From the IMG/VR virus record IMGVR_UViG_3300027734_000136, positions 1-40,394 of that record: a stretch of 40,394 bases of DNA; one strand, 5' to 3'. This DNA comes from a virus. The stretch's first letter is position 1. The number at the start of each line of letters is the position of its first letter. Positions 1-14,745 of this stretch are shown one piece after another. The translations under genes were made by a program, and so were the position numbers. Under the pieces are notes generated by a model, which had not been told where the DNA came from, ran no database searches, and saw only the letters and a program-made list of their open reading frames with translations.

Positions 1-175
1 ACAGAAAATTAAAAGAATCTACGATTATGCAATTTCTGAAGATGATTTTGAAGTAGAGAAGAATAGATTAGACTTTGCTATGTTTGTAGACGAACACGAT
101 ATTAGGAGAAACACTAACTTCTTAGAGACGTTTCCGGAATTAACAAAATTTTATAGCGATGTTAAGAATAGATAA
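1..175 (+). CDS. Radical SAM protein, C-terminal end (5' truncated by window)
   Basis: An open frame enters from the left edge (codons begin at base 2) and stops at 173-175. Its last residues, around DIRRNTNFLETFPEL, closely match the C-terminus of the radical SAM gene ending at 2310, which has DIRRNKNFVETFPML at the same place. I therefore call it the tail of a paralogous radical SAM/twitch protein. The cluster-binding cysteines and the TIM-barrel core lie outside the window, so catalysis cannot be judged. It overlaps the next gene by 17 bases, as is usual in this island. It is the first of three related radical SAM genes within 3.6 kb. Confidence 0.65.
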   Translation, partial: QKIKRIYDYAISEDDFEVEKNRLDFAMFVDEHDIRRNTNFLETFPELTKFYSDVKNR

Positions 176-740
176 AGAAAATCCCTGGATTATGTGGCCT
201 AATAGCATGGTTGAGAACTTTATTGAGAATCCAGCAAATAGGGTCTTTGATTACGAGAAAGATTTTCTATTTAAATTAGTATTCTCTCTACCTAACCCTA
301 TTACGCAAAAAGCCACTCTATTTTCCAAACTACCTTCTTACTTTGGAATCGATTTAGAGGTAGACGGAATGACTTTTATTGTTTCTTACGAAACAGGGCA
401 GACAGAGTATGTACACGTTAGCCGCAAATGGCAAGTAGATACTGATTACGAGCTGGTTATCGCAAGAAAAGAGAGAGAATTACATTTTTTTGTAAATCGA
501 GAAAATATACTTAACTTTACGTTACGTAATAAGCTATCTTGCGATAGTACCTCTCATATTATCTTTGGAGCCGGTAATTTTCCAAAGAACGGATTTAATT
601 TAAACTACTTAGACGTAGATTTACAAAGATTACAGATATTTCAAGAAAATACTCTGATTGCAGAGCATGATTTCGACATATTTATATATAATAAGAGTTT
701 TGATAAGACAGAGAATTGTAATTTTATACATAAAATTTAG
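159..740 (+). CDS. Hypothetical protein, possible lectin-like beta-sandwich
   Basis: A 193-residue protein not firmly recognised. It has no signal peptide and no membrane segment. The middle and C-terminal parts are rich in alternating hydrophobic strands (FKLVFSL, DYELVIARKERELHFFV, HIIFGAGN, VDLQRLQIF). The pattern of a short glycine turn followed by LDVDLQRLQIF resembles concanavalin A-like/LamG beta-sandwich domains, which bind glycans or sit in fibre proteins. This is a fold guess only. It starts inside the end of the preceding radical SAM gene and ends two bases before the next one, so it is translated within the radical SAM operon and may be a partner or substrate-binding protein. It has no catalytic motif I can identify. 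Confidence 0.6.
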   Translation: MLRIDKENPWIMWPNSMVENFIENPANRVFDYEKDFLFKLVFSLPNPITQKATLFSKLPSYFGIDLEVDGMTFIVSYETGQTEYVHVSRKWQVDTDYELVIARKERELHFFVNRENILNFTLRNKLSCDSTSHIIFGAGNFPKNGFNLNYLDVDLQRLQIFQENTLIAEHDFDIFIYNKSFDKTENCNFIHKI

Positions 741-742
741 TT

Positions 743-1342
743 ATGGGAGTATTTGCTAAAAAAGAAGAAGAAAGCTACCAAGAGTATCGAGATAGAGCTA
801 TAAATTCTATCTCCCCTGCATTTTGCGGAGCTAAGTGGTTTAATGCCACTATTTGGTTAGGTAACGGTACAAATGCAAGCTGTCATCACCCGCCAGCACA
901 TAAAATACCTTTAGAAGAGGTAGCTATGAGTTATAAAGCAATTCATAACACTCAGTATAAGAAACTAGTTAGAAAACAGATGCTAGAAGGCGAAAGGCCT
1001 AAAGAGTGCGACTACTGCTGGAAGATTGAAGACTTGGGTCCTGATAAAGTATCAGATAGAGTATATAAATCAGTTATCTATACTGACGAAGAGCTGCTAG
1101 AGGCGAAAACTAAGTTAAGTTGGACAGAAGATGTTGACTTAAAGACATTAGAGATTGCTTTCGATCCTAATTGTAACTTTGCCTGTTCTTATTGTAACGC
1201 TTCCTTTAGTACTACCTGGCAAAACGATATTAAGAAGAACGGCCCGTACCAGAACCTAGTAAGTGATGGAGCAGCAGCCTTTAGCACGACGGAAATCACG
1301 CTATGCCTTACGGTAAGAAAAACGAAGGTAATCCTTATGTAG
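743..1342 (+). CDS. Radical SAM protein, N-terminal half (split by frameshift)
   Basis: This 199-residue frame carries the N-terminal cysteine-containing domain (C47, C89, C92 in KECDYCWKIED) and the radical SAM cluster motif CxxxCxxC at C144, C148 and C151 (sequence CNFACSYC), which would bind a [4Fe-4S] cluster and SAM. Homology-like sequence ends at about residue 180 (DGAAAF); the remaining 19 residues are out of frame and read as nonsense. The natural continuation is in another frame from base 1285, which encodes HDGNHAMPYG and the GGEP half. One missing base between 1282 and 1283 explains this, for example a lost C turning TTT-CAG into TTTAG. With it restored the protein would be 522 residues (743-2310). 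This half has the cluster motif but not the SAM-binding GGEP motif. Confidence 0.75.
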   Translation: MGVFAKKEEESYQEYRDRAINSISPAFCGAKWFNATIWLGNGTNASCHHPPAHKIPLEEVAMSYKAIHNTQYKKLVRKQMLEGERPKECDYCWKIEDLGPDKVSDRVYKSVIYTDEELLEAKTKLSWTEDVDLKTLEIAFDPNCNFACSYCNASFSTTWQNDIKKNGPYQNLVSDGAAAFSTTEITLCLTVRKTKVILM

Positions 1343-2310
1343 AAGCATTTTGGAAATGGTGGGAAGCTGAGTTACAGCACTCATTAAGAGAGTTAAGAGT
1401 AACAGGAGGCGAGCCTACTATGTCTCAAGACTTTTGGAAGTTAATGAAATGGTGGGAAAATAATAAAGACTGTGCTGTAGATTTTGCAGTTAATTCTAAT
1501 TTAGGACAGAAAGATGAATTATTTGAAGAATTATTAAAAGCAAGCCACAACATTAAAAGTTTTCATTTATATACAAGCTGTGAATCGACAGGTGCTCATG
1601 CCGAGTACATTAGAGACGGTTTAAAATGGGAGAAGTGGGTTAGTAATGTAGAAAGAATGTTAAAAGAAGGTAATGTAAAGTCTATAAACTGTATGATGAC
1701 AATTAATGCATTATGTTTATTTTCTATTACAGACTTTATGGACGAAATATTGAGACTAAAAAGAGAATATAAAACTCCTTCACCTCACTGTTCATTCAAC
1801 ATATTACGTTTTCCTTCCTTCCAGTCAATAGTAACTCTACCTAAACATATTAGAGAAGAGAGAGCTAATCATATTGAAAAATGGATATTTGATAATTATG
1901 ATGGAGGTGCAAACTTCTTTCAAGATTGGGAAAGAGACGGAATGTTAAGAATGGTAGCCTATATAAGAGAAATCGAAACAGGACATAACCATACTTCTTC
2001 TTTAGAGTCTAGAGAGAGAGATTTTAAGTCTTTTTATACTCAATACGATATAAGAAGAAATAAAAACTTCGTAGAAACATTTCCAATGTTAAAAGAATGG
2101 TTTGAAGCAATACCTGAAACAAACATAGCACCATTAAAAGAAGCTATTAACGGAGATGACGCAAAATCTAACCGTTACGTAGACGAGGTAATGGAAACTG
2201 CTAAGAAAGAAGGCTGGGTATTAAATCCACAGTGGGCTAATCCAGGAGCTCAAGACTATATTGAACCTGATCAGCAAGATGAAATGTTAAACTTTATTAA
2301 AAATGGTTAA
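1303..2310 (+). CDS. Radical SAM protein, C-terminal half (split by frameshift)
   Basis: This 335-residue frame continues the radical SAM protein that starts at 743. It contains the GGEP motif (ELRVTGGEPTMS, about residues 32-43) that contacts the SAM amino group, the rest of the barrel, and the C-terminal DIRRNKNFVETFPML segment shared with the partial gene at 1-175. The ATG at 1303 is internal to the ancestral protein: the frame is open back to 1285 and reads HDGNHA before that ATG. Without the CxxxCxxC half upstream it cannot bind the cluster. It ends with an 8-base overlap with the next radical SAM gene. It is either one part of a broken gene, a sequencing or assembly indel, or (less likely) the product of recoding. 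Confidence 0.75.
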   Translation: MPYGKKNEGNPYVEAFWKWWEAELQHSLRELRVTGGEPTMSQDFWKLMKWWENNKDCAVDFAVNSNLGQKDELFEELLKASHNIKSFHLYTSCESTGAHAEYIRDGLKWEKWVSNVERMLKEGNVKSINCMMTINALCLFSITDFMDEILRLKREYKTPSPHCSFNILRFPSFQSIVTLPKHIREERANHIEKWIFDNYDGGANFFQDWERDGMLRMVAYIREIETGHNHTSSLESRERDFKSFYTQYDIRRNKNFVETFPMLKEWFEAIPETNIAPLKEAINGDDAKSNRYVDEVMETAKKEGWVLNPQWANPGAQDYIEPDQQDEMLNFIKNG

Positions 2311-3565
2311 TCTTAAAGACAGTAAGAACTTTTGTGCAGCCCCCTGGATGCATCTTCACGTAATTAATAACGGTGAGGCATTTCCTTGTTGTATGACTCC
2401 TCTTGAAAAGGAAAATTCATTCGGTAATGTTAAAGAACAAACTCTATTAGAGGTAGTTAATAGTAATACTGCTAAAGAAATGCGACTGAGGATGTTAGAA
2501 GATAAGCCTTTACCTAAGAGTTGCGAAAGATGTACTAATAGAGAAGAGCACGGTCTTACAAGTATGAGACAGGGGATGAACGGTAATTGGTACGACAAGG
2601 TTAAAACAAACATAGAAAAGACAAACCCAGACGGATCAGTTAACGAACTCAACTTAAGGTATTGGGATTTTAGGTTTAGTAACTACTGTAATCTGTCCTG
2701 TAGAACTTGCGGACCTTTATTTAGCAGTGCTTGGGCTAATGACTATCCAAAATTACATATTGACGATCAACAAACAGGAGTCATACATTTAGATGATGCA
2801 GAAATTTTTTGGAAGGATATTGAAGAGAACGTTAAAAACATGGATCAGATAATGTTTGCAGGAGGTGAACCGATGTTAATGAACGAACACTGGAGAATGA
2901 TAGATTTATTTGAAAAATATAATCATTATGATGTTGAGTTAAAGTATTCTACTAATGCAACTCTGCTACATAGAGGGAAGAGAAATATTTTAGATATTTG
3001 GCCTAAGTTTAGACATATTCATTTAAGTTTAAGTATTGATGGAGTTGGTGATACTTTTGAATATGTAAGAAACGGAGGTAAATGGCCTCAAGTTGAAACC
3101 AATTTACTTAACATAGATAAAAACCATATTGATTTTTGGATACACCCTACAGTAAGCAATTTAAACATCTTTAGATTAACAGAGTTACATAAAAAGCTCT
3201 TTGATATGGGAATTATTCCTGCAGAGAAAAAAGAAAAAGAACAGTATTATGGCATAGAAGATTATTTCATTAAGAGATTCCATATAAATCCTCTGTATGT
3301 TCAAGAGTTTAATTGTATCAAAGCTCTTCCTCCTGAATTGAAAGAATTAGCAACAGATAAGATTACAAAGTATGGAAAAGAGTTATACGATAAACACGGA
3401 ATTCCTAAAGAAGGGTGGGACTCAATAGTACACTTTATGTGGGAGTCTGATCAATCACACTTATTTCAAGAGTTTGTAGACATGACTACGAAGTTAGACA
3501 TAATAAGAAATCAAAACATATTAGCAATTAACCCTGAGTATAAAAACTATTTTAAATTAAAGTAA
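2303..3565 (+). CDS. Radical SAM / twitch domain protein
   Basis: A complete 420-residue radical SAM protein. The N-terminus has the pattern CAAPWMHLHV, then FPCC and CERC (C11, C29, C30, C74, C77), typical of a group of phage and bacterial radical SAM proteins with an extra cysteine-rich entry domain. The cluster motif CxxxCxxC is C129, C133, C136 (CNLSCRTC), and GGEP is at 187-190. The remaining barrel and a C-terminal region related to the two upstream paralogues follow. The reaction is unknown; families with this layout act in peptide and sugar modification. The stop codon shares one base with the next ATG (TAATG), so it is probably translationally coupled to the SGNH hydrolase. It is the only intact radical SAM protein of the three here. 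Confidence 0.85.
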   Translation: MVNLKDSKNFCAAPWMHLHVINNGEAFPCCMTPLEKENSFGNVKEQTLLEVVNSNTAKEMRLRMLEDKPLPKSCERCTNREEHGLTSMRQGMNGNWYDKVKTNIEKTNPDGSVNELNLRYWDFRFSNYCNLSCRTCGPLFSSAWANDYPKLHIDDQQTGVIHLDDAEIFWKDIEENVKNMDQIMFAGGEPMLMNEHWRMIDLFEKYNHYDVELKYSTNATLLHRGKRNILDIWPKFRHIHLSLSIDGVGDTFEYVRNGGKWPQVETNLLNIDKNHIDFWIHPTVSNLNIFRLTELHKKLFDMGIIPAEKKEKEQYYGIEDYFIKRFHINPLYVQEFNCIKALPPELKELATDKITKYGKELYDKHGIPKEGWDSIVHFMWESDQSHLFQEFVDMTTKLDIIRNQNILAINPEYKNYFKLK

Positions 3566-4497
3566 TGCACGGATTAACTATTTTTAAAGAATTAAAAAAG
3601 CAAAACAAAGAAAGTATTCTATTTAGATACGATCAACTAAAGGATTACGAAGAGTTACGTCTATTGTCGCTGTACTTAATGAGTAAAAGTACTAATATTA
3701 TATGCGAATCTCCTACTAGGTTTGAAGTCTTACATGCTTTAGAAGAAAAGGAGTCTAAGGAAGCTATTAACAAAGGTAAAACTAGTTTTAAATTTGAAGA
3801 TGTACATTATGATATGAGTGAATTAGGTTATAGAATTACAAATCCTTTAGAAAATATAAAAAATTCCGTTGGAGTATTCGGATGTAGCTATACCTTTGGA
3901 GTAGGAGTACCTTACGAGAAAGTATATTCTTCCATACTTGAGCGTAAACTTAAAAAACCCGTTTATAATTTCGGAATACCTGGAGGAAATATACAGAAGA
4001 TAGCTAAAGCTTTCTGTTCTATTAATAACTTTTACAGGTTAGATACAGCTGTTTTCGTCCTACCCTCTTTATACCGTTACGAATTTATAAGAGAAGCCGG
4101 CGATTGCTTTTATCAAGAGGATCTTATTCCAAATTATCCTCCTTATGATAATCCTAGGGTATATAAAATGTTGTACGAAGAGTTTGACGACACAACGTTT
4201 TTTAATGAGTATATAAAAAATATAAACCTTATAAAGTATAATGCAAAAATACAAAGCACAAAAACCTACATTACGACTTGGTGTAAAGCTACTTTAGATC
4301 TTGTTAGAAAATATAATTTAGATTTATTTAACGTAGAACAGACGAGGTTTGTAGAATCAGAAGAATCACATGCAGGGATTAATGTTACAGATTTTGCTAG
4401 AGACGGATATCATCCCGGTATAAGATCTCATGCATTATCTGCTGATTCTATCTATAACGCAATTGTTCCTCCTAGAGACACTAAAAAACTTATATGA
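3565..4497 (+). CDS. SGNH/GDSL-like hydrolase
   Basis: A 310-residue protein with the hallmarks of SGNH hydrolases. Block I is GCSYTFGVG with the likely nucleophile S108, a Gly/Asn block follows at about 136-142 (FGIPGGN), and the C-terminal D280-x-x-H283 is in RDGYHPG. Such enzymes hydrolyse ester bonds, often O-acetyl groups on sugars, or can act as transferases. The first 100 residues are an extra N-terminal domain of unknown fold. No signal peptide is visible, so it works in the cytoplasm or in the virion. It overlaps the carbamoyltransferase gene by four bases (ATGA). A second SGNH gene closes the island at 13692. The real substrate is unknown. Confidence 0.75.
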   Translation: MHGLTIFKELKKQNKESILFRYDQLKDYEELRLLSLYLMSKSTNIICESPTRFEVLHALEEKESKEAINKGKTSFKFEDVHYDMSELGYRITNPLENIKNSVGVFGCSYTFGVGVPYEKVYSSILERKLKKPVYNFGIPGGNIQKIAKAFCSINNFYRLDTAVFVLPSLYRYEFIREAGDCFYQEDLIPNYPPYDNPRVYKMLYEEFDDTTFFNEYIKNINLIKYNAKIQSTKTYITTWCKATLDLVRKYNLDLFNVEQTRFVESEESHAGINVTDFARDGYHPGIRSHALSADSIYNAIVPPRDTKKLI

Positions 4498-6050
4498 TAG
4501 TACTAGGCATTTCAGCATATTATCATGATTCAGCGGCTTGTTTATTTCAAGACGATAAACTCGTATTTGCATGTGAGGAAGAAAAGTTTACAGGTATAAA
4601 ACATGATTCTAGCTTTCCTACACACGTTGTAAACTACATTAAAGAACATTATACAGATAAATTCGATTTAATTTGCTATTACGAAAAACCAAACTTTAAA
4701 TTATTAAGAGCTTTAAAGCACAACTGGCTATCGGTACCGCGTATACTATGGACTAATATAAAATTACGGTTCAAATTAAGAGAGCTTTGCAAGAATACGT
4801 TCTTTTCTGAACATCATATGTCTCACTTAATGTATGCTTACTACAGTTCTCCCTTTAAAGACGCTACTTTAATGAGTATTGACGGAGTAGGAGAAGAAGA
4901 AACTTTACGAATAATGGAAGTTACTGACGGAATGGTCATTCCACAAGTATCTATTAAGTATCCGCATTCTCTTGGCTTACTTTACTCTGCTATTACGTCA
5001 TATCTTGGCTTTAAACCTAACGAAGGCGAATATAAAGTAATGGGACTTGCTTCTTACGGAGATCCCACTGCCTATAAGGGTAAGTTTAGGAAATTATTAA
5101 ATTATAAGAGAGGATTACAGGTAGATATGAAGTATTTTACCTGGAGTAGGAGTAACAGAGTAATGTTTAATCATCACTTAGTCGAGCTGCTAGGAGAAAA
5201 TAGACTTCCAGATGAACCAATAGAACAAAGACACAAAGATATTGCAGCAGCACTTCAATGGATATACGAACAAGCATTATTTCATTACTTAAAGCAATTC
5301 CCAGGCGAAAATTTATGTTTAAGCGGGGGATGTGCTTATAACGGAACAGCAAACGGCAAGATTAAGACAAATACTTCTTATAAGAACGTGTGGATACCGC
5401 TAGCTCCTTCAGATGCAGGTTCCTGTATAGGGGCTTGTTTAAATTATTTAAATAAAAATATAAACCAAGACCCTTTCTTAGGTCCTTCTTACGAAGACTT
5501 CGAAATGTGTAACTCTAAACCTTTAGATTTAGGTACTATTGCTAAAGAACTTAACGACGGGAAGGTAGTGGGATGGTTTGAAGGTAGAATCGAGTTTGGA
5601 GCAAGAGCTTTAGGACATAGGAGTATTTTAGCAAATCCAACTCTACCTGGAATGCAAGATCGAATAAACAAGCTTATTAAAAAACGTGAGATGTTTAGGC
5701 CATTTGCACCAATGGTAATCCAAGAGGCTCAATCTATGTTCTTTGAATCGGATGACTTTGTTCCCTATATGAATCAAGTAGTAAAAGTAAAGGAAAAGTA
5801 TAGAGATAAATTAAAAGCAGTAACTCACGTAGATGGAACAGCAAGAATACAGACCGTTTATGATCAAAAAAGTAAAATGTACGAGTTACTATGGAAATTT
5901 AAACAATTAAGCGGCTTTCCGATACTATTAAACACCTCTTTTAACATAAAGGATAAGACAATGGTACTAACTCCGGAAGATGCTTATAAAACTTTTTTGG
6001 AAACTAACATAGATATCCTTATTATTAATAATAAAATGTACTTTAAATGA
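4494..6050 (+). CDS. Carbamoyltransferase, NodU/CmcH/TobZ family
   Basis: A 518-residue protein that spans the whole NodU/CmcH family. The N-terminal Kae1-like ATPase/carbamoyl-adenylate domain opens with ILGISAYYHDSAACL and EEEKFTG, followed by the histidine region EHHMSHLMYAYYSS, the nucleotide-binding segments LMSIDGVGEE and LSGGCAYNG, and the C-terminal domain with GARALGHRSILANP and RPFAPMV. In this family carbamoyl phosphate and ATP give carbamoyl-adenylate, and the carbamoyl group then moves to a hydroxyl of a sugar or antibiotic. In a phage the acceptor may be a glycan, a virion protein or a modified nucleotide; sequence does not say. It is flanked by SGNH and APS kinase genes and shares ATGA with the small gene after it. 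The family call is firm; the substrate is open. Confidence 0.9.
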   Translation: MIVLGISAYYHDSAACLFQDDKLVFACEEEKFTGIKHDSSFPTHVVNYIKEHYTDKFDLICYYEKPNFKLLRALKHNWLSVPRILWTNIKLRFKLRELCKNTFFSEHHMSHLMYAYYSSPFKDATLMSIDGVGEEETLRIMEVTDGMVIPQVSIKYPHSLGLLYSAITSYLGFKPNEGEYKVMGLASYGDPTAYKGKFRKLLNYKRGLQVDMKYFTWSRSNRVMFNHHLVELLGENRLPDEPIEQRHKDIAAALQWIYEQALFHYLKQFPGENLCLSGGCAYNGTANGKIKTNTSYKNVWIPLAPSDAGSCIGACLNYLNKNINQDPFLGPSYEDFEMCNSKPLDLGTIAKELNDGKVVGWFEGRIEFGARALGHRSILANPTLPGMQDRINKLIKKREMFRPFAPMVIQEAQSMFFESDDFVPYMNQVVKVKEKYRDKLKAVTHVDGTARIQTVYDQKSKMYELLWKFKQLSGFPILLNTSFNIKDKTMVLTPEDAYKTFLETNIDILIINNKMYFK

Positions 6051-6154: not shown

Positions 6155-6156
6155 TT

Positions 6157-6594
6157 ATGATAATATGGTTAACAGGACAGCCTGGAGCAGGTAAGACAAC
6201 CCTGGCTAAATGGCTAGAAGCACATTTTGCAGGTAAAGCCGCTATCGTAGACGGTGATGATATTAGAGCGATCTTTGATAATAAAGACTATTCAGAAGCA
6301 GGTAGAAGAAAGAATATAGAATTAGCTCAAAACATAGCTAAATTTTATCACCACAAAGGAAATATTGCTATTGTATCGCTGGTATCACCTTATAAAGATC
6401 AACGAGATTCCTTTAAGGAAGCCATAGGAGACGGTATTGTAGAGGTATACGTACATACTACAGATATTAGAGGTAGAGAACAGTTTCACGTAGCGGATTA
6501 TAGTGCTCCTACAGAGAATTTTGTAGATATCGATACTACTAGTAGATCAGAGTTTGAAGTATTTCAAGAATTAAGACAAAAATTGAGTTTATGA
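6157..6594 (+). CDS. cysC: Adenylylsulfate (APS) kinase-like protein
   Basis: A 145-residue P-loop kinase of the CysC family. Walker A is GQPGAGKT at 7-14; the APS-binding region includes VDGDDIR at 31-37, the helix SEAGRRKNIELAQNIAKF, and SPYKDQR at 77-83 (the SPYRxxR block of APS kinases). Near the C-terminus YSAPTENFVDIDTT matches the family YExPxxPEIxIDT region. APS kinase phosphorylates APS to PAPS, the donor for sulfotransferases. It is shorter than typical bacterial CysC (about 180-200 residues). APS itself would have to come from host ATP sulfurylase, as none is seen here. Two sulfotransferase-like genes lie downstream (9634, 12088) and a DUF2061 gene two positions on, a family often found beside CysC. 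A different small-molecule kinase role remains possible. Confidence 0.8.
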   Translation: MIIWLTGQPGAGKTTLAKWLEAHFAGKAAIVDGDDIRAIFDNKDYSEAGRRKNIELAQNIAKFYHHKGNIAIVSLVSPYKDQRDSFKEAIGDGIVEVYVHTTDIRGREQFHVADYSAPTENFVDIDTTSRSEFEVFQELRQKLSL

Positions 6595-7183: not shown

Positions 7184-7192
7184 TTTTTATAG

Positions 7193-7209: not shown

Positions 7210-7221
7210 AGTAAAACGCAT

Positions 7222-9171
7222 ATGAGAGCAGTTATTATAGGAACCGACTTTATGAAAGATATAGATGGATCTTTCAAAGCTTTAGAAACGAATACTAATG
7301 TACAGTTAGATACTCAGTGGTCGTTAAATTTCGATTCTGCATCTTTTGAGAATTTCGTAACATCTAATAATTTTACAGAAATTGTTTTAATTTCAAATGA
7401 AAACAATTTATCAGCACAGTCAAGTTATACGTTTAATTACGATTTTGAAGAGTTAAAGACGAAAATTAGTCAAAATTCAGAAAATAGTACAGCTGTTTTT
7501 TCAAGTTTTAAATCTTACTTAGCTGATTTTACATCAGGAAGTTCTATAACTTTTAATACATTTCAAACCGATAGGACTTCAATTACTGTTCCGTTTGTAG
7601 AAGATGAAGATAGCAAGTTAATTATTCGATTATCATATGATACTACAGCATTAATTGACGATACATATGCAAGAGATAACTGCGAGTTTTTAAAGTTAAT
7701 GTACGACGCAGACCCAAATTCTGTTCCGAAGTGTTATATAAATAACGACGAAATTATCCTTGATTCGATCGGTACTACTTTGAGAGATAATGGAAATCAT
7801 CCAAACTACTGTATTAAAAGACGAGTGACTCCTTTTGATAACAAAACATATCCAAAATTACTTAAAGTTGATACAATTGAACAATTAAATGTATTGAAGT
7901 CTAATTTAAGAGCTGAAGAGTATATCCAGGAGTTTATATACAATACTGATGATTTATTAGATAACAGAGTTAAATCGTATAGAAGTGTAGATCTACTGTA
8001 CGGTTCAAATTTAGATATTATTAACTTACAAACTTTAGAAAAAACTGCAAATTTAGAAGTAGTAGAAAGTTGTGATTTTGACGATAATGGAGAAGTTCAA
8101 TACTGGGATAGAATGAGATACTGTCAAAAATTTTACACTCAAATTTCAGAAGTTGCAGTAAAGTTAGATGCAACTGATAATACGAAAATTATACTACCAG
8201 ACGGAAATATATCTTTAGCAAAAGAGCTCAATACCGGTGATAGTGTGAAATCAATACTATTTAGTACTTTATCAACTGACGATAGAGCTCAACCTGCACT
8301 AACGTGGAGTAGTTCTTTTAACGAGACAGTAGCAAATTTTGAAATATCGACAACTGAGTTAGTAAACACTGGTTCTTTAAACTATTTCGGTACATTAGTC
8401 ACGTTCGAAACTGATACTAATGCGATATTTTCAGATGTAGGGCATGCTGAAATTATGGTTAAAGACGGAGATAACGCAAAATTTCAACAGTACATAAATT
8501 TAATTGCAGGTAGCACAGTCGTCTTATTTGATAGTTTGACTAATGAACTAGTAACATCAGTTATAACTAATATAACATACAAATTCGATAAATTTAAAGG
8601 GTACTTGCTAGACTTTGAAGCATCAGATTTATTTTTGACGTTAGAAGAGACAGAAACACAGAGCAGATACGGTTTAGTAACACATAATTACGGTTACGAC
8701 TGTAGATACGTAAGATGCCCTCCAGGAGACCGAAATAACACTTTATTTCTTTTTAATGACTGCGGTAGCAATTATTTTTATACGTACGGCGCACGTACCT
8801 ATGCTTACCTAGACCCAGGCACTGTATGTGCAAGGTACCCAGGCTATAGCCCTTATGGATATTCAACACCGGTATGCGAAACCAGCGATGAATCCGGAAA
8901 CGGACAAAATCCTTATTATCAAGTTTACGGGTATTGTAACGGACAAAAATCCGATGTTTTATATAAAGAGAATATAAAACTATACGATAAGTCTTTACAT
9001 GGTATAAACATATATCGTTTTAATTATAAAAACGAAGATGGCTTATATGAGGGAGTAATCGCACAAGAGTTAATTGGAACAAAATTTGAAAATGCATTAT
9101 CTAAAGATAGAAATGGTTTATATACGGTTGATTATAATAAAATAGATGTTGAATTTAAAAAAATAAAATAG
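7222..9171 (+). CDS. Tail-fibre-like protein with Hint-like and S74 chaperone domains
   Basis: A 649-residue protein. The C-terminus (about 575-649) is a Peptidase_S74 intramolecular chaperone domain: KSDVLYKENIKL with candidate self-cleavage Ser577, GLYEGVIAQEL, and GLYTVDYNKI. Such domains help fibre and spike proteins trimerise and are then cut off. Residues about 312-489 look like a Hint (intein-fold) domain: TKIILPDGNISLAKELNTGD at the start, a histidine block VGHAEIMVKDGD, and THN at 487-489, but no Cys or Ser where a splicing nucleophile belongs. Residues 490-574 are very rich in Tyr, Cys, Pro and Gly. The N-terminus GTDFMKDIDGSFKALETNTN resembles the metal-binding end of ATP-grasp proteins, a weak match. 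Likely a receptor-binding virion protein, in its own transcription unit. Confidence 0.75.
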   Translation: MRAVIIGTDFMKDIDGSFKALETNTNVQLDTQWSLNFDSASFENFVTSNNFTEIVLISNENNLSAQSSYTFNYDFEELKTKISQNSENSTAVFSSFKSYLADFTSGSSITFNTFQTDRTSITVPFVEDEDSKLIIRLSYDTTALIDDTYARDNCEFLKLMYDADPNSVPKCYINNDEIILDSIGTTLRDNGNHPNYCIKRRVTPFDNKTYPKLLKVDTIEQLNVLKSNLRAEEYIQEFIYNTDDLLDNRVKSYRSVDLLYGSNLDIINLQTLEKTANLEVVESCDFDDNGEVQYWDRMRYCQKFYTQISEVAVKLDATDNTKIILPDGNISLAKELNTGDSVKSILFSTLSTDDRAQPALTWSSSFNETVANFEISTTELVNTGSLNYFGTLVTFETDTNAIFSDVGHAEIMVKDGDNAKFQQYINLIAGSTVVLFDSLTNELVTSVITNITYKFDKFKGYLLDFEASDLFLTLEETETQSRYGLVTHNYGYDCRYVRCPPGDRNNTLFLFNDCGSNYFYTYGARTYAYLDPGTVCARYPGYSPYGYSTPVCETSDESGNGQNPYYQVYGYCNGQKSDVLYKENIKLYDKSLHGINIYRFNYKNEDGLYEGVIAQELIGTKFENALSKDRNGLYTVDYNKIDVEFKKIK

Positions 9172-9175
9172 AAGC

Positions 9176-9325
9176 ATGGCAACAGAAAATAATAAAAATT
9201 TATCTTATTCAAACTACAAAGATTTGTTTAAAAGACAGAAACTTGTTTCAAATAGTACAGTAAAGTTAAATTTACTGAATGCAGTAGCGGTATTGACGAG
9301 CGCAATAAAACAAAAGCATTCTTAA
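9176..9325 (+). CDS. Small hypothetical protein, 49 residues
   Basis: An ATG five bases after the fibre stop opens a 49-residue frame (MATENNKNLSYSNYKDLFKR at the start, ending AVLTSAIKQKHS). It fills most of the 178-base gap before the zinc-ribbon gene. It is soluble, with a predicted helical C-terminal half (VKLNLLNAVAVLTSAI). The clean position directly behind a virion gene and codon use like its neighbours support a real gene, perhaps a small partner of the fibre. No family recognised. Confidence 0.55.
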   Translation: MATENNKNLSYSNYKDLFKRQKLVSNSTVKLNLLNAVAVLTSAIKQKHS

Positions 9326-9337
9326 TAGAATTTTTTT
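9318..9337 (+). terminator. Weak terminator-like hairpin
   Basis: ATTCT (9318-9322) and AGAAT (9327-9331) can pair around a TAAT loop, followed by a run of T to 9337. The stem is only 5 bp with one G-C pair, so it is weak, but it lies right at the end of the small gene and before a new ATG. It could end the fibre transcript. Confidence 0.3.
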
Positions 9338-9348
9338 AATAATAAGTT

Positions 9349-9633
9349 ATGATAAAAAAAGTAAAAGAAATTGCAGAATCGTGGATTATTGCAGCAAATC
9401 CATCAAAAGAACAGTTAGTATTAGCAGCAGCTAGATTAAATATCTGTAACAATTGTGAATTTATAGGACATAGAAAGAATACAGGAAGTCCCGTCTGTAC
9501 TAACTGTGGCTGTCCTCTTAAGAAAAAAATATTTTCACCAATGTACGATGCCTGTCCGCTACACAAGTGGTTAGAGGTTGAAAATACAGAGCTATTTACA
9601 AATACTCAGAAAAAATCAAAAAGTTTTTTGTAG
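9349..9633 (+). CDS. Zinc-ribbon protein
   Basis: A 94-residue protein with ordered cysteine pairs: CNNC, CTNC followed by GC, then CPLHKW (about residues 33-36, 50-55, 69-74). This spacing indicates a zinc ribbon of the kind found as small phage proteins of unknown role, possibly binding nucleic acid or protein. The N-terminal 30 residues are helical. It starts in the GTTATG context shared with other genes here and its stop abuts the ATG of the sulfotransferase-like gene, so both are probably made from one message. A narrower function cannot be given. Confidence 0.7.
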   Translation: MIKKVKEIAESWIIAANPSKEQLVLAAARLNICNNCEFIGHRKNTGSPVCTNCGCPLKKKIFSPMYDACPLHKWLEVENTELFTNTQKKSKSFL

Positions 9634-10368
9634 ATGAGTTTATTAATTAATAACGAATTAATCTGGGTTAGTATTCCAAAAAATGCAAGCTATTCAGTCG
9701 AGCACTCACTATTAACTTCGAATCTTAGAATAGAACATGCACCAGTATATTATGCATTATTAGAAAGTAACAAGCTTAATAATACCGATGTATTACCGCA
9801 TCCGCATGTTAAATTAGATGAATTAAAGAGAGATTTCGGTGACAAAGAGACATTTTGTATAAAAAGAGATCCTTACGATAGATTTATAGCCGGAATTGAA
9901 TTTATTTTTTCAAAAATTATTACTGTAAACAATCATACTCCAGTAGTTGATATTAGCGAAATTGATAATAATTTTATATATTCGTTTTTTGATTTTGAAA
10001 CTATAAATAATTTATACGATACAACTAATCGAAGACATGAACTATGGTTTAATATTTACTGTAGACTAATTAAAGAAGAGTTAGATTTTAGTAGCACTTA
10101 TAGGAATGTGTTTACTAATCTCTCTACAATACTTTCACAAAACTATTGGACAAACTGTAAAAAATGTACCTACGAATTTGATATTTTAGATTTAGACAAG
10201 TATACTAAGTTTATAAATAAAAAATTTAATGTTAATATAGAAATTGAGAAGTTAAATACAACTATATACAAAAATAAATCAGGTATAATTAATAATATTG
10301 AATTTAAAAACTGGGTATATAATTCTTTTGAAAAAAGATTTGATATAAATAATAGAAATTTTATATGA
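9634..10368 (+). CDS. Sulfotransferase-like protein (first)
   Basis: A 244-residue protein with the two PAPS-binding signatures of the sulfotransferase superfamily. The 5'-phosphosulfate loop is WVSIPKNASYSVEHSLL, with P15-K16-N17-A18-S19 near the N-terminus. The 3'-phosphate region is CIKRDPYDRFIAGIEF (R78, then about S/A86). The layout is like the membrane-type carbohydrate sulfotransferases in short form. It would move a sulfuryl group from PAPS to a hydroxyl or amine on a sugar or protein. The C-terminal half is divergent. The APS kinase upstream could supply PAPS. It ends in an ATGA overlap with the first oxygenase gene. Sequence alone does not prove activity or acceptor. Confidence 0.7.
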   Translation: MSLLINNELIWVSIPKNASYSVEHSLLTSNLRIEHAPVYYALLESNKLNNTDVLPHPHVKLDELKRDFGDKETFCIKRDPYDRFIAGIEFIFSKIITVNNHTPVVDISEIDNNFIYSFFDFETINNLYDTTNRRHELWFNIYCRLIKEELDFSSTYRNVFTNLSTILSQNYWTNCKKCTYEFDILDLDKYTKFINKKFNVNIEIEKLNTTIYKNKSGIINNIEFKNWVYNSFEKRFDINNRNFI

Positions 10369-10859
10369 TAAGTTTTGTTAATAATTTACTAGATAAAGAC
10401 GAGTTTATTTTTTTAAAAGAAAAAATGACAGATAACTTAAATGATTTTACAATAAAACCAGATAAAGTTAAACTTACATACTATAAGACAGATATATCTA
10501 AACAAAAAAATAGCTTATTAAATTACTACAGTAAAATAAGCAGGTATGTAGATCTTAATATTTTTGATATTAGTTTTATTTCACTCAACTGTGCTACAGA
10601 CGATACAAACAGTGAAGATACGTTTCATAGAGATAATTGCGATAGAACAGTTATAACTTATTTAAACAATAATTTCAAAGGCGGAGAATTGCAATATATT
10701 CTAAACGAGGAAACAAAACTGTTTAATCCAATAGAGAATATGACCATAATATTTAATTCAAAAATTAAACACAGAATATTACCGGTAAAAGAAGGATTTA
10801 GATACTCCCTGGTAACTTTTTTCGTCCTAAAACCTACCAATATTATAAAGTTATTTTAA
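10365..10859 (+). CDS. 2-oxoglutarate/Fe(II) oxygenase (first, P4H-like)
   Basis: A 164-residue double-stranded beta-helix protein. The iron triad is visible as H88-x-D90 in FHRDNCDRTVITYL and H136 in KIKHRILPV, with R146 in EGFRYSLVTFF positioned to hold the 2-oxoglutarate carboxylate. The GGELQY strand between them is typical of prolyl 4-hydroxylase-type enzymes. It should hydroxylate a C-H bond using O2 and 2-oxoglutarate; the substrate is unknown. It starts within the stop of the sulfotransferase-like gene (ATGA), which suggests coupled translation. It is the first of five such genes between 10365 and 13695. Confidence 0.8.
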   Translation: MISFVNNLLDKDEFIFLKEKMTDNLNDFTIKPDKVKLTYYKTDISKQKNSLLNYYSKISRYVDLNIFDISFISLNCATDDTNSEDTFHRDNCDRTVITYLNNNFKGGELQYILNEETKLFNPIENMTIIFNSKIKHRILPVKEGFRYSLVTFFVLKPTNIIKLF

Positions 10860-10871
10860 TAAAAATCACAT

Positions 10872-11396
10872 ATGTACAGCCAGTATTTTAATATCTTATC
10901 CGAACAAGAGTATTCTATATGTAAAGAAATAATCGATAACTCTTTATGGAAATACGGTCATCTAAGTAGACCTACTTCCTCTCATAAGTTTTGGATGATA
11001 CCAAGTTTGACAAGTTATCCGTTTTTTAACAGTATTTTTATAAAAAAAATAGAGGAATTGACGAGTAATCAATTTGAAATAATTAGAATATACGCAAACG
11101 GTCATACGTTTGGTCAAGAAGGAGATTGGCATGTAGATTCTAAATTAGAAAATGCTTGGACGTTCTTATATTATTTTAATAAAGGAGACAGTAGTACTAT
11201 AGGAGAAACTTATTTTAAAGACGAACAGGATAACATTACTGATATCGCAAAACCTACACACAATAGCGGTATATTATTTAAAAGCGACCTTTACCATAAA
11301 GGGTCTTCGCCAAAAATAACATTTAATGATTTACGTATTACAATTGCATTTAAATTAAAAATGATCAAATTAAAATTAGATAAAACTTTGTTTTAA
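10872..11396 (+). CDS. 2-oxoglutarate/Fe(II) oxygenase (second)
   Basis: A 174-residue protein. The iron ligands appear as H87-x-D89 (GDWHVDSKLENAWTFLYYFN) and H142 (DLYHKGSSP), followed by R155 (DLRITIAFKL). The GETYF strand after the HxD motif is the usual place for the acidic or glycine-rich strand of the double-stranded beta-helix. The protein differs clearly from the other four oxygenases here, especially in its N-terminal 60 residues, so they are not simple tandem copies. The gene lies 12 bases after the previous stop and 9 bases before the next start. The substrate cannot be predicted. Confidence 0.8.
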   Translation: MYSQYFNILSEQEYSICKEIIDNSLWKYGHLSRPTSSHKFWMIPSLTSYPFFNSIFIKKIEELTSNQFEIIRIYANGHTFGQEGDWHVDSKLENAWTFLYYFNKGDSSTIGETYFKDEQDNITDIAKPTHNSGILFKSDLYHKGSSPKITFNDLRITIAFKLKMIKLKLDKTLF

Positions 11397-11405
11397 TTAA
11401 AAGGT

Positions 11406-12083
11406 ATGAAAATTGAAAAAATTTATTTTGATAAGGACACCTACATATGGAAGGTTAAGTTAAATTTAAAGGAATTTAAAGATGAATTCTTAAAGGAATG
11501 TTATGAAGAAATTGAATTACAAAAAAACCAAAAAGCTGATGGATACCTTCACCAGTACCACGTAAAAGATAAAGTAGATAATTACTTCTGGGAGCGATCA
11601 ACTTCGAAAGAAATATTAATTCTAAAAAAAATAGACACTATTATTCAAAGCGGTATAAATTATTCCGAAGAAATATATAAAAGTGCGCAAAATAATTGGA
11701 GTATTATAAATTCAGATTGTTGGATAAATAGAATACGTTCTAAACCAGTACAGCCAAACTTTTATGCTGAAACAAGAAGTAAAAAATTTCATACACATAC
11801 GGGAATTGCACACGCTACAAAGTCTTTTTACCCACATTACACCTGGGTATACTATATTCAAATGCCAAATAGATTAAGACCGGGTACAGACGACGGTATA
11901 ATTTACTTTAAATCAAATAAAGGTGTCGAATACAGCATACTACCAGAAGAAGACGACTTAATTATAATGCCTGGAGATATGCCGCATTTTCCAATGAACG
12001 CATCAGAGTCAACTATTGATAGGATAGTTTTAGCTGGAAATGTTGGATTTGAACATTTAAAAGTTACAAAAACTTTAATGTAA
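11406..12083 (+). CDS. 2-oxoglutarate/Fe(II) oxygenase (third, cupin-like)
   Basis: A 225-residue protein with the layout of the putative 2OG-Fe(II) oxygenase family related to PF13759. An H-x-H pair (H129, H131 in KKFHTHTG) precedes a strand ending WVYYIQMP, then GIIYFKS, then LIIMPGDMPHFP with H194, and finally DRIVLAGNV with R206 for 2-oxoglutarate. The first 90 residues form a separate helical N-terminal domain with no known match. Members of this family are frequent in marine and T4-like phages with no proven substrate. It belongs to the same gene run as the oxygenases on either side but comes from a different subfamily. Confidence 0.75.
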   Translation: MKIEKIYFDKDTYIWKVKLNLKEFKDEFLKECYEEIELQKNQKADGYLHQYHVKDKVDNYFWERSTSKEILILKKIDTIIQSGINYSEEIYKSAQNNWSIINSDCWINRIRSKPVQPNFYAETRSKKFHTHTGIAHATKSFYPHYTWVYYIQMPNRLRPGTDDGIIYFKSNKGVEYSILPEEDDLIIMPGDMPHFPMNASESTIDRIVLAGNVGFEHLKVTKTLM

Positions 12084-12087
12084 CGGT

Positions 12088-12678
12088 ATGGTTATTATAG
12101 TAATAGCAGAACCAAGAACCGGTTCGACAAATCTTGCTAATTGGTTTTCTGCTAAGAAAAATTTTACTGTTTTACAAGAACCGATAGCAAATTTAAGAGC
12201 GAAGGATTTTAAAAACGGCATAACTCCTTTTAGATGGGAGTATCAGACAGAACATTTGTTTGTAAAAGATATTTTAGGTAACGGCTTACATTTTAATGAA
12301 TTAATCTCTATTTCTGACAGAGTAATATTGCTTTACAGAGAAAACGAAGAAGAACAAATAGAGTCTTGGTTGAACGCTAAGGTAGAAGGTACCTGGCATC
12401 AACAATGGATATACAAGGAACTAGAGAGTAAAGAAGAAGAAGAGGCGTTTAAAAAAGTAAAAAGACGTTTTAAAGAAGAGTATCTTGATAAAGACTTTTT
12501 TAAAATCTCTTACGAAGAGTTATACTATAGAGACGGCTTTGAAAAAGTGTTAGAGTACATAGGTATTGAAGATTTAAAAAATAAAGGTTTTCCTTACGGA
12601 AAAAAGTATAGAGTAAATTCAGAAGAAGAAATTAAAATAGACTTAAAGGATGAAAATAGAAAGCCGAAATTTATTTAA
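12088..12678 (+). CDS. Sulfotransferase-like protein (second)
   Basis: A 196-residue P-loop-like protein. The N-terminus IIVIAEPRTGSTNLANWF has the sulfotransferase 5'-phosphosulfate loop PRTGSTNL at 9-16, and R84 in ILLYRENEEEQIESW fits the 3'-phosphate site (R followed by a helix with S93). It resembles Stf0-type and other small bacterial sulfotransferases and is clearly different from the gene at 9634. The C-terminal third is strongly charged. It probably transfers sulfate from PAPS to an unknown acceptor. Its last 29 bases overlap the next oxygenase gene, whose ATG lies inside it, so expression of the two is linked. Confidence 0.7.
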   Translation: MVIIVIAEPRTGSTNLANWFSAKKNFTVLQEPIANLRAKDFKNGITPFRWEYQTEHLFVKDILGNGLHFNELISISDRVILLYRENEEEQIESWLNAKVEGTWHQQWIYKELESKEEEEAFKKVKRRFKEEYLDKDFFKISYEELYYRDGFEKVLEYIGIEDLKNKGFPYGKKYRVNSEEEIKIDLKDENRKPKFI

Positions 12679-13201
12679 TACAGAGGAGGTAAGTAAGATA
12701 CTTTCCTATGTAGAACAATGGGAGAATACTAATATCGAAGTAAGACTAGGGTCTAACTACTCAAAGAATGGCGGTGTGATGAAATCCTTTAAAATAATCT
12801 GGAATAAAGATAACCTATGGATTCAAGATAGAATTATAGATTGGGTAAATGCCTTGCCGGGAATAATAACAATTAATAAGAGTAGTACTATTGAATGTAC
12901 TTTTAGAAGATATGAGGTAGGAGACTTTTTTATTAAACATGATGACCATGTATATAGTGGAGATAAGAGAATATACACTTTAGGAATACAACTATCTGAC
13001 TTAGAGAACTTCTCAGGAGGTGATTTAAAATTTTACTTACCTGATACCGAGTATATCCTACCTTACGAAAAAGGAAAAGCTTACATATTCGATTCAGGCA
13101 TTCCTCATTCAGTAGAGTTGGTAACTAAAGGCGTTAGAGAGACTTTAATGTTTTTTATAGGGGAGTCTAATATTAAGCGTAACGAAAGAAACTTCATATG
13201 A
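12650..13201 (+). CDS. 2-oxoglutarate/Fe(II) oxygenase (fourth, P4H/PHD-like)
   Basis: A 183-residue protein typical of short prolyl hydroxylase-like enzymes. FRRYEVGDFFIKHDDHV carries H97-x-D99, the strand RIYTLGIQLSDLENFSGGDLKFY follows, the second histidine is H153 in IPHSVELVTKG and R163 (VRETLMFFI) binds 2-oxoglutarate. The FxxYxxGDFxxxHxD pattern is a strong match to the P4Hc family, whose known members hydroxylate proline in proteins; phage members are untested. It begins 29 bases inside the second sulfotransferase gene and ends in an ATGA overlap with the fifth oxygenase. Its last residues, NERNFI, resemble the NNRNFI end of the gene at 9634. Confidence 0.85.
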   Translation: MKIESRNLFNTEEVSKILSYVEQWENTNIEVRLGSNYSKNGGVMKSFKIIWNKDNLWIQDRIIDWVNALPGIITINKSSTIECTFRRYEVGDFFIKHDDHVYSGDKRIYTLGIQLSDLENFSGGDLKFYLPDTEYILPYEKGKAYIFDSGIPHSVELVTKGVRETLMFFIGESNIKRNERNFI

Positions 13202-13695
13202 TTAAGCAAAAGGTTATTTTTAGTAAAGAAGAATGTAGTACTATAATCGATTTTTTTAAAAAAGAAAGTGAATTATGGAGTAATTCAGATAGAAAATATC
13301 AATCTGCTATTATAGATTTTACTACAGAAACTGAATGGCTATTTACTAGACTAAAAGAGTTTTTTGAAGCAGAGATAGAAATAAAAATTATAAAATTGAA
13401 AAATTTTATACATTTACATAGGTACGAAAAGGGGGATTGGTTTGGGAGACATAAAGATACTAGAGAAAGTAGAATGTATGCTGTAGGAGTGTGTCTAAAC
13501 GATGAGTATAAAGGAGGCGACTTTGTACTTTATGATAAGGAAGCTTATCTACTAGAAAAAAGAGCCGGAAATGCTTACGTATTTGATGTTAATACCGAAC
13601 ACGAAATAACACCGATAGAAGAAGGAGAGAGGTATTCACTTATTTGGTTTTTAGAGAATACTAATTTAAAAATAAAAATTAAATCTTTAATATGA
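13198..13695 (+). CDS. 2-oxoglutarate/Fe(II) oxygenase (fifth, P4H/PHD-like)
   Basis: A 165-residue relative of the previous gene: HLHRYEKGDWFGRHKDTRESRMYAVGV holds H85-x-D87 after the RYEKGDWF strand, GGDFVLY follows, H135 is in NTEHEITPI and R145 in GERYSLIWFLE. All ligands for iron and 2-oxoglutarate are present, so it is probably active. Similarity to the fourth oxygenase in the core suggests an old duplication, but the N-terminal 60 residues differ. It overlaps both neighbours by four bases, giving tight translational coupling from 12650 to 14456. Confidence 0.85.
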   Translation: MIKQKVIFSKEECSTIIDFFKKESELWSNSDRKYQSAIIDFTTETEWLFTRLKEFFEAEIEIKIIKLKNFIHLHRYEKGDWFGRHKDTRESRMYAVGVCLNDEYKGGDFVLYDKEAYLLEKRAGNAYVFDVNTEHEITPIEEGERYSLIWFLENTNLKIKIKSLI

Positions 13696-14456
13696 TAAAA
13701 TACTGGACATTAGAAACTTTTGATGTATCTTCTTATAAATGGAAATTAGAAGAAAGGAAGAACAGGACATATACGACATCAGGATCAGACAATTCTGGAC
13801 AATCTACATATAGCTACAACTCTTTAGGATTTAGAGGAGACGAGCCTACTAAACAAGGATTTAAGATAATGTCTTTAGGGTGCTCTCATACAGAAGGAGT
13901 AGGAGTAGATGACGATAAGACATGGTCTCACCAACTCTGTAAACTAATCCCAAACGCAGTAGACTTAAACTTCGGGTTTGGAGGAAGAAGTAGTGATTAC
14001 GTTTCAAGATGCTTACTAACATATTACGACTTAGTTAAGCCAGACTTAGTTTTAATAATGTATCCAAATCAAGATAGGAAAGATTATTATACAAGAGAAG
14101 GAGGAGTTGAACCTTTTGCATGGAACCCTTGGGGATATTTTAAAGAAGATCCGGTAGGAAGAGAGATGTACCATAATTTATCTAATATCACTAATAAACA
14201 AGACGGTATTGTTAACTGGTATAGAAACCATTTGCTAATTACGTACTTTTTACAGATTAAAAATACCCCGTTTGTATGGAATGGAGCACATTTAGACGGG
14301 GCTATAGAAGAATCTAATAGATTTGATAATGATTATAGAAATTATAAGGATTATGGAGCAGACGGTGGACATCCTGGCCCTGAACATAACAGGCTTTACG
14401 CAAAAAATCTATACAGTTTCTTAAAAGAAAATAAAATATTGCCGGAAGTAGGGTAG
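13692..14456 (+). CDS. SGNH/GDSL-like hydrolase
   Basis: A 254-residue SGNH protein. After YSYNSLGFRGDE, common just before the core of phage SGNH proteins, block I is LGCSHTEGVGV with nucleophile S65. FGFGGRSSDYV supplies the Gly block, YPNQDRKDYY the Asn block and D224-GG-H227 (DGGHPG) the catalytic Asp/His pair. It is compact, with only a short N-terminal extension, unlike the gene at 3565. Esterase or acyltransferase activity on sugar O-acyl groups is the family norm; the true substrate is unknown. It is the last gene of the modification island and is followed by a promoter-like motif and the tail genes. Confidence 0.8.
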   Translation: MIKYWTLETFDVSSYKWKLEERKNRTYTTSGSDNSGQSTYSYNSLGFRGDEPTKQGFKIMSLGCSHTEGVGVDDDKTWSHQLCKLIPNAVDLNFGFGGRSSDYVSRCLLTYYDLVKPDLVLIMYPNQDRKDYYTREGGVEPFAWNPWGYFKEDPVGREMYHNLSNITNKQDGIVNWYRNHLLITYFLQIKNTPFVWNGAHLDGAIEESNRFDNDYRNYKDYGADGGHPGPEHNRLYAKNLYSFLKENKILPEVG

Positions 14457-14473
14457 TTCCTAAAAATATCGAT

Positions 14474-14482: not shown

Positions 14483-14507
14483 TAATACAACACCAAAATT
14501 TAATTTT

Positions 14508-14744: not shown

Positions 14745-14745
14745 A

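Follow-up and report, generated by a model that had tools for sequence, protein, structure and literature searches.

A gain/loss cassette upstream of a viral tail sheath gene encodes a candidate ATP-grasp/Hint protein with variable, often cysteine-rich C-termini

Organization of the locus

The stretch of DNA analysed here (the window) is the whole IMG/VR virus record IMGVR_UViG_3300027734_000136, 40,394 bases in length, and the record begins at window base 1. Upstream of a tail sheath gene (15054–16826), whose product has its nearest relative among phage records in Flavobacterium phage immuto (53% identical), open reading frames (ORFs) run from 159 to 14456, all on the same (+) strand and many overlapping by 1–29 nucleotides (nt). 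These include putative carbamoyltransferase (CarbT), sulfotransferase-like (ST), 2-oxoglutarate-Fe(II) oxygenase-like (2OG), adenosine-phosphosulfate-kinase-like (APSK) and nucleotidyltransferase (NT) genes. In the right half lie three genes that we refer to as I (7222–9171), P (9176–9325) and J (9349–9633). Gene I is predicted to encode an ATP-grasp domain and a Hint domain ahead of a variable C-terminus, and we propose, tentatively and with a probability of about 0.45, that this half makes and tailors a cysteine-rich, fast-evolving peptide of which gene I is the self-processing precursor.

An initial annotation had described 159–14456 as a candidate system for modifying virions or glycans, with a single S74-type fibre gene, which is our gene I. 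The enzyme kinds that it named (radical SAM, carbamoyl transfer, sulfation, hydroxylation, nucleotidyl transfer and two SGNH proteins) are present, those for sulfation and the SGNH proteins on weak matches and motifs, and a phage-borne modification system is supported. The tight overlaps reported on both sides of the fibre gene occur elsewhere in the region and not at gene I itself, which is preceded by a gap of 38 nt and followed by one of 177 nt; the latter holds P, which had been missed.

Predicted domains of gene I

Gene I encodes 649 amino acids (aa), of which about 490 are modelled as ATP-grasp plus Hint. A model of the full protein, folded with 38 relatives, has a mean predicted local distance difference test score (pLDDT) of 73, with residues 493–587 below 50; residues 1–312 (7222–8157), folded with 86 relatives, reach 89. 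These residues are predicted to adopt an ATP-grasp fold. Four Foldseek matches have E-values of 0.001 or less, all of the glutathione-synthetase type, and on re-alignment the 16 matches listed at Z 8.1–9.3 are YgiC/YjfC, glutathione synthetases, glutathionylspermidine synthetase and similar proteins, the best being YgiC (7uk8; Z 9.3, root mean square deviation (rmsd) 4.2, 216 residues aligned), with glutathione synthetase at Z 9.2 and glutathionylspermidine synthetase at Z 8.6. Ranks 27–50 of the same list (Z 6.9 to 6.2) belong to tubulin complexes; the chain matched there is presumably tubulin-tyrosine ligase. The likeness covers about residues 1–306. A profile search of the PDB gave no match up to E 10, and the best related Pfam match to 87 family members was RimK, in 3 of the 87 at an E-value of 0.24, which is at chance level. 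Near the N-terminus is an Asp...Glu-x-Asn-Thr motif, which we take to resemble that of the glutathione synthetase, glutathionylspermidine synthetase and YgiC ligases.

Residues 313–492 are predicted to adopt a Hint fold, the domain proper (residues 313–489; 8158–8688) ending in His-Asn (HN). Compared with 6tyy they give Z 17.2 and rmsd 2.0 over 142 aligned residues, and all 50 of the matches listed (Z 13.4–17.2) are inteins, hedgehog or bacterial intein-like (BIL) domains. After the HN comes an 88-residue segment with six Cys and 16 Tyr (8689–8952), whose end we place at what, from its motif, we take to be the start of an S74-like C-terminus (8953–9171, stop codon included; PF13884 E 0.002, below cut-off; phrog_6121, a virion protein, 1e-7 over residues 577–641). 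Where the model is confident (residues 1–492), no fibre or β-helix shaft precedes S74. With two such domains, and with the conserved HN and variable Cys tails described below, the gene does not fit the ordinary S74 fibre that it had been taken for.

The gene I family

A scan of viral contigs with the single gene I protein of the window returned no relatives; these were reachable only with a profile (A1) built from 39 distinct proteins at loci of a CarbT scan. Only the best 80 places were retained in every scan of viral contigs. Gene I relatives were found at 265 places by a one-pattern profile scan (best 80 of 265 used) and CarbT at 94 (best 80 of 94 used), and the two scans pooled gave 96 distinct complete gene I proteins, the window included. 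Two further profiles were built after this, A2 from 87 of the 96 gene I proteins with near-copies removed and A3 from 46 of 106 J genes. Relatives are referred to by locus labels (L016, L086 and so on). Gene I is present once in each of six records searched (57–289 kb, none rated complete), and tblastn with four family members against 50,697 phage records gave no match. In a bacterial and archaeal collection holding one genome per species, a single-pattern scan found gene I at one place, a 3.7-kb contig of a Pelagibacterales metagenome-assembled genome that also carries J, a 2OG gene and a gene of a 426-aa family mentioned below; it seems likely that this contig is misbinned phage DNA.

Twelve positions are invariant in all 96 proteins (D9, E22, N24, T25, R136, D140, D146, Y149, P194, K199, R254 and N489), and H488 is His in 93. 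The retention of D9, E22, N24, K199 and R254 in 96 of 96 is read from the sequence alignment and not from superposition on a ligand-bound site. HN and the polar ATP-grasp residues are maintained down to about 20% identity, and the residue that follows the Asn varies. At place 316, which aligns with the Hint nucleophile (with an uncertain exact register in divergent members), His occurs in 31 proteins, Lys in 23, Ser in 14, Gly in 13, Ile in 10, Asp in 4 and Val in 1; the window has Asp, and Cys occurs in none of the 96. Since the Asn (96/96) and the His (93/96) are kept and Cys-1 is never present, only C-terminal cleavage is expected: splicing and N-cleavage appear unlikely, and Asn-dependent C-cleavage is possible. 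In the portion consulted of a review (PMC5874633), A-type BILs are described as often having no nucleophile after the Asn and as being susceptible to C-cleavage.

Several kinds of ending follow HN. Sixty-one of the 96 end in Cys-rich tails of 26–49 aa (six Cys in 44, seven in one, eight in 15 and ten in one), 19 in S74, 13 in further Hint domains, two in long sequences that are not S74, and one after five residues. In L189 and L202, S74 comes after a tail of this short kind. Four homologues, in L153, L135, L098 and L094, end in tandem canonical Hint domains (CFVAGT...HN).

Rates of change were compared within the 61 Cys-tail proteins, with pairs binned by identity of the ATP-grasp domain and rates given as the ratio of nonsynonymous to synonymous change (pN/pS). 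In the 90–99.9% bin (10 pairs, 16 proteins) the 62 shared aligned tail Cys show no mismatch of Cys with another residue, and the other tail positions are 72% identical; pN/pS is 0.60 at these other positions and 0.15 in both the ATP-grasp and the Hint domain. Between 80 and 90% (22 pairs) the tail has 0.52 as against 0.18 for ATP-grasp and 0.19 for Hint, with five Cys/other mismatches, and between 70 and 80% (49 pairs) 0.67 as against 0.25 and 0.28, with 32 such mismatches. In the closest pairs the non-Cys residues of the tail thus change about four times faster, by pN/pS, than the body of the protein.

These observations also bear on the main rival explanation, which we regard as somewhat unlikely: that gene I encodes a particle protein, an adhesin or tail-tip part, whose variable Cys-rich or S74-capped C-terminus contacts a receptor, with ATP-grasp and Hint serving as scaffold or assembly aids and the neighbouring enzymes hydroxylating, sulfating or otherwise decorating the tip. 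A fast-changing tail is what would be expected of a receptor-binding part, and the S74-like end in 19 of 96 proteins, including that of the window, and behind the short tails of L189 and L202, agrees with this. The remaining 77 of 96 have no S74, and the retention of HN and the polar ATP-grasp residues through about 20% identity exceeds what a scaffold would require. Cleavage at HN would, moreover, detach the tip from the protein.

Genes P and J and recurrent neighbours

P is an ORF of 49 codons that lies immediately after gene I. A search for ATG ORFs of 22–75 codons found one within 60 nt of the gene I stop at 95 of 97 distinct loci, and within 110 nt at all 97; the ORFs have 24–51 codons in 96 loci and 69 in one. 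As a control, an ORF within 60 nt follows 364 of 2,524 genes, and 213 of 375 where the following gap is at least 100 nt. Over 151 pairs of equal length, pN/pS of P is 0.35, and its C-termini are of few types (KHL/KHS, ANS, VTQ). J encodes a 94-aa protein with six Cys (phrog_13558, 3e-8), and the six are invariant across 46 aligned relatives.

Neighbours were labelled (I, J, ST, 2OG, CarbT, SGNH, triad, halogenase) with our own iterative profiles. The SGNH counts are loose because the SGNH1 profile is superfamily-wide (266 matches). The neighbour statistics concern 131 gene I loci, 79 from the gene I scan and 52 from the CarbT scan, with some contigs common to both. Within three genes of I at the 79 loci, J occurs at 73, ST at 61 and 2OG at 53; the 52 loci of the CarbT scan give 30, 30 and 36. 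The corresponding background is 4, 100 and 146 among 1,000 random genes lying farther than eight genes away from I, and 0, 0 and 11 among 513 genes in sheath loci. Across the 131 loci the neighbours of gene I therefore recur far above background. Of the loci of the gene I scan, 31 have 5 kb or more on either side; among these, J is found at 29, ST at 29, 2OG at 27, and CarbT within 5 kb at nine. J as an exclusive partner of I was ruled out by J loci without I. Nine I-less J loci were inspected, with sheath genes recognised by eye: six have J two genes upstream of the sheath, one has another neighbour, and two have no J by motif. The six (L306, L309, L314, L307, L321 and L295) carry a J of 75–78 aa.

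Gene I neighbours in relatives also include a Trp halogenase (PF04820, 1e-87), a SET-domain protein (6e-12) and a B12 radical SAM enzyme. By Pfam, no halogenase was found among the island proteins of the window, and halogenase was scored absent near its gene I. Were the tail the substrate, halogenase would be expected to accompany Trp in it. At least two tail Trp are present at 24 of 24 plain-tail loci with halogenase versus 16 of 38 without; the association has a raw p of 1.5e-4 and is not significant on the tree, for which 65 of the 96 proteins were scored (those of the Hint class and those with short flanks being left out, and the classes of L133, L099 and L142 being misfiled). The test neither supports nor refutes the tail as substrate. 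Two unfamiliar recurrent families, of about 426 and 476 aa, were met as well, and their counts were not used; an impression that they are glycosyltransferases was dropped, as Pfam gives none, and the profile of the 476-aa family also captured a protein with a transketolase domain.

Candidate tailoring enzymes

Eight genes follow J in the window. They encode sulfotransferase-like protein 1 (9634–10368; PHROG 3347, 1e-6), 2OG-like protein 1 (10365–10859; PF13640, 1e-8), 2OG-like protein 2 (10872–11396; PF13640, 2e-5, just below cut-off), 2OG-like protein 3 (11406–12083; PHROG 81, 1e-9), sulfotransferase-like protein 2 (12088–12678; PF13469 Sulfotransfer_3, 0.008, below cut-off), 2OG-like protein 4 (12650–13201; PF13640, 2.5e-9), 2OG-like protein 5 (13198–13695; PF13640, 1.5e-11) and SGNH-motif protein 2 (13692–14456; PF13472, 0.003, below cut-off, and motifs). 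An HxD motif with a later His is found in four of the five 2OG genes, and HxD is absent from 11406–12083. PHROG 274, met in 10365–13695, is labelled 'DNA endonuclease V', yet the window proteins match 2OG-Fe(II) oxygenase-like families by Pfam, and the label may be wrong.

Phages with oxygenase-type clusters that modify DNA bases exist, and 13198–13695 has a sub-threshold match to Oxygenase-NA (7e-4). A role for the island's oxygenases and its other enzymes in altering the bases of phage DNA is nevertheless highly improbable: no DNA-modifying family rises above cut-off in the island, nothing about I, P or J gives reason to think of DNA, and the preQ0-type QueD and QueE genes lie elsewhere in the record. 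The initial annotation had likewise disfavoured DNA. QueD- and QueE-like genes (37882–38349 and 38811–39644; PHROG 9e-42 and 4e-37) are the only genes of a known DNA-modification pathway that were noticed; with them the phage DNA may carry 7-deazaguanine, independently of the island.

A cassette upstream of the sheath gene

Synteny among relatives separates the right half from what surrounds it. In blastn comparisons L016 matches window 6155–7170 (81% identical) and then, after 35 nt, window 14474–15352 (90%), so that it lacks the 7.3 kb running from I to SGNH2; the empty site lies between DUF2061 and the genes preceding the sheath. L086 and L093 (85% and 92%), which have identical match patterns and are perhaps one virus, have at this site a different block that includes I, J and ST genes. 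By these comparisons 7171–14473 is a gain/loss cassette, and the suggestion that the 'fibre' gene and the enzymes are gained and lost together is borne out. Its position directly upstream of the sheath gene is what a decorated virion tip would also lead one to expect. The sheath protein itself has 590 aa in the window and 699 aa in L016 (4826–6925 there), with extra sequence in the latter after about residue 120; the surrounding DNA is about 90% identical.

Of the 80 sheath relatives retained, 22 have an upstream flank of 7 kb or longer. The APSK-NT-DUF2061 triad (6157–7183), which in the window lies to the left of the cassette, precedes the sheath in 10 of these 22, and nine of the ten show no I, J, ST or SGNH. 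Of the 22, only L078 has a gene I block; relative to the window it is 56% identical in the sheath, 78% in CarbT, 81% in APSK, 67% in SGNH2 and 26% in I. With a middle block that is common in relatives and two separable sides, 159–14456 is, on sequence comparison, not one system, and the single island of the initial annotation breaks up; CarbT within 5 kb of I at only nine of 31 loci leads to the same result.

The left module and the middle triad

The left module starts with a LamG-like protein (159–740; PF13385, E 0.05, below cut-off), whose relatives adjoin radical SAM genes in L102, L105 and L152. The radical SAM assignment of the following ORFs holds by NF033640, and two of them, 743–1342 and 1303–2310, are one twitch radical SAM gene (743–2310) split by a frameshift; its halves score 136 and 172 bits (cut-off 170). 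The frameshift is placed between about 1270 and 1282, four relatives being stop-free over 519–521 codons, and may be either an assembly error or real. A second radical SAM gene, of the twitch/SPASM type (2303–3565; NF033640 367 bits, 1e-109; SPASM 1e-13), is followed by SGNH-motif protein 1 (3565–4497; motifs, no family above cut-off) and a NodU-type carbamoyltransferase (4494–6050; PF16861 1e-64, PF02543 2e-58). Both SGNH genes of the window have the motifs G-C-S-x-T, N-x-G and H-P-G, with family matches that are weak or none. Elsewhere, L105 (1–9000) has several divergent twitch radical SAM genes arrayed before a carbamoyltransferase, the first of them 87–91% identical to that of the window and the carbamoyltransferase 55%, and in L003 (MH319727), a virus contig of marine single-cell origin, a carbamoyltransferase adjoins one radical SAM gene together with SGNH2-like ones, in a different order.

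The triad, common in sheath relatives, consists of an APS-kinase-like P-loop kinase (6157–6594; 7e-20), a cytidylyltransferase-like nucleotidyltransferase (6591–6977; 5e-6) and a DUF2061 membrane protein (6974–7183; PF09834, 2e-16). One PHROG (10255) covers both the kinase and the nucleotidyltransferase. Sulfate activation by 6157–6977 was considered and is not supported, the triad having no sulfotransferase labels in nine of its ten carriers among the sheath relatives and the nucleotidyltransferase being nearest to NMN adenylyltransferases.

Nucleotide-sugar or amino-sugar enzymes account for six of ten proteins tested on the CarbT side of relatives (eight upstream of CarbT in L182 and L106, one upstream of CarbT in L078 and one upstream of the triad in L016), and an RmlC-like protein also lies on the CarbT side of a relative. 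From the flank, neighbour and CarbT-side comparisons, the left half (radical SAM, SGNH1, CarbT) is probably a separate, sugar-related module and the triad probably phage backbone, with the right half a separate cassette. It might instead be that the whole stretch alters host surface sugars with carbamoyl, sulfate and acyl groups, for example to block superinfection, with gene I an accessory enzyme. The carbamoyltransferase family, the sugar enzymes on the CarbT side and the twitch radical SAM and SGNH genes would fit this; the gene I block stands without CarbT within 5 kb at 22 of 31 loci, a fast-evolving Cys-rich tail is not needed for it, and Pfam finds no glycosyltransferase in the window. 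We consider it improbable for the stretch as a whole. Where a protein or glycan target had been suggested, the two halves part company, a peptide or protein being favoured for the right and a glycan for the left.

Interpretation

Our proposal for the right half is as follows. Gene I would be made together with the tail genes; its Hint domain would cyclise Asn489, cleave after HN and free the C-terminal segment; in the window, S74 would cut this segment at its far end, so that about 88 residues remain. Modification of the freed tail would be the task of the sulfotransferase, 2OG and SGNH enzymes, joined in relatives by the halogenase. The ATP-grasp domain would make an amide bond to the tail, which may run from the C-terminus of P to the freed N-terminus of the tail. 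Such a product would serve for recognition or for conflict with other cells or phages. We infer this function from the modelled domains and, at the level of sequence, from residue conservation, the fast tail, P and J, the enzyme association and the loss and replacement of the block.

Several observations weigh against this. The ATP-grasp likeness is at fold level only, with a template modelling score of 0.39 to the query in Foldseek, and the sulfotransferase assignments are weak (PHROG 1e-6, and Sulfotransfer_3 below cut-off). S74, typical of virion fibres, ends 19 of the 96 proteins, and the window is among them. Release of a Cys-rich peptide could not be universal, as 13 proteins end in further Hint domains, two in long sequences without S74 and one after five residues. 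The pairs used for the tail rates overlap and are not independent, and because tail pN/pS stays below 1, relaxed constraint could explain the fast tails. L203 has no fitting ORF between I and the next gene, and the ORF counted as P in L133 looks unlike the others. J occurs without I at 30 of 80 loci of the J scan, and at 13 of the 45 flanked by 3.5 kb or more on each side. On the tree the halogenase label switches just five times, with p 0.125–0.5 from independent pairs.

Compared with a decorated virion tip, the self-processing precursor accounts better for the conservation of HN and the ATP-grasp residues, and S74 and the tail-gene neighbourhood fit the tip as well or better. A more specific form of our proposal, which we hold to be doubtful, is a peptide system of phages in which an ATP-grasp and C-cleaving Hint precursor releases a fast-evolving, conotoxin-like Cys-rich peptide that the ligase joins to or loads with P and that exchangeable enzymes (sulfotransferases, 2OG hydroxylases, halogenases and others) decorate, for use against rival cells or phages or as a particle tip.

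In place of a vague 'modification island' there is now something that can be tested, namely a family of proteins combining ATP-grasp, Hint and Cys-rich parts. Should the tail be set free and tailored, phages would encode peptides that are ribosomal, self-processed and chemically decorated; should it remain on the particle, virion tips would carry installed chemistry.

Comparison with known systems

Full-text literature searches, mostly of papers outside subscription and with preprints excluded, returned nothing combining 'Hint domain', 'phage' and 'ATP-grasp', and no description of the ATP-grasp/Hint/Cys-rich architecture was recognised there. Similar kinds of enzyme occur together in another large phage, treated in a survey of jumbo phages that is said to be by Iyer et al. 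(2021). In the portion of that 2021 survey consulted (PMC7824862), a 10-gene cluster of Cyanophage S-SSM6a combines carbamoyltransferases with a halogenase and 2OG enzymes, and its proposed role is to make a halogenated secondary metabolite or to decorate the capsule. That cluster, as presented there, holds carbamoyltransferase, halogenase and 2OG together, whereas the window has only CarbT and 2OG, and neither I nor J was found in the two S-SSM6a stretches compared. Cyanomyoviruses have a hypervariable region between g15 and g18, described with metabolic genes in the part consulted of PMC2984593. The window resembles this region, so far as described there, in having a variable block directly upstream of the sheath gene, and differs in carrying tailoring enzymes and gene I; its g15 side would lie outside the record.

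With S74 (endosialidase-type) fibres the gene I of the window shares an S74-like C-terminus; it differs in that its confidently modelled part shows no shaft and that 77 of its 96 family members have no S74. Glutathione synthetase, glutathionylspermidine synthetase and YgiC share the fold of about residues 1–306, whereas the gene I domain is shorter, is fused to Hint and matches no sequence of the PDB up to E 10.

Clusters for ribosomally synthesized and post-translationally modified peptides (RiPPs) are defined by a short encoded segment beside modifying enzymes. The window and its relatives resemble them in that a short segment, Cys-rich and variable, is encoded close to radical SAM, 2OG and ATP-grasp functions and, in relatives, a halogenase. 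They differ in that the segment is fused to ligase-like and Hint domains, is virus-borne and is known from genes alone; the RiPPs treated in the part consulted of PMC11118758 are cellular. BIL, intein and hedgehog Hint domains, finally, have the same fold (Z up to 17.2), the same C-terminal His-Asn and a similarly varied residue after the Asn, whereas in gene I Cys-1 is absent from all 96 proteins and the domain is fused behind ATP-grasp and often followed by a short, fast-changing Cys-rich tail.

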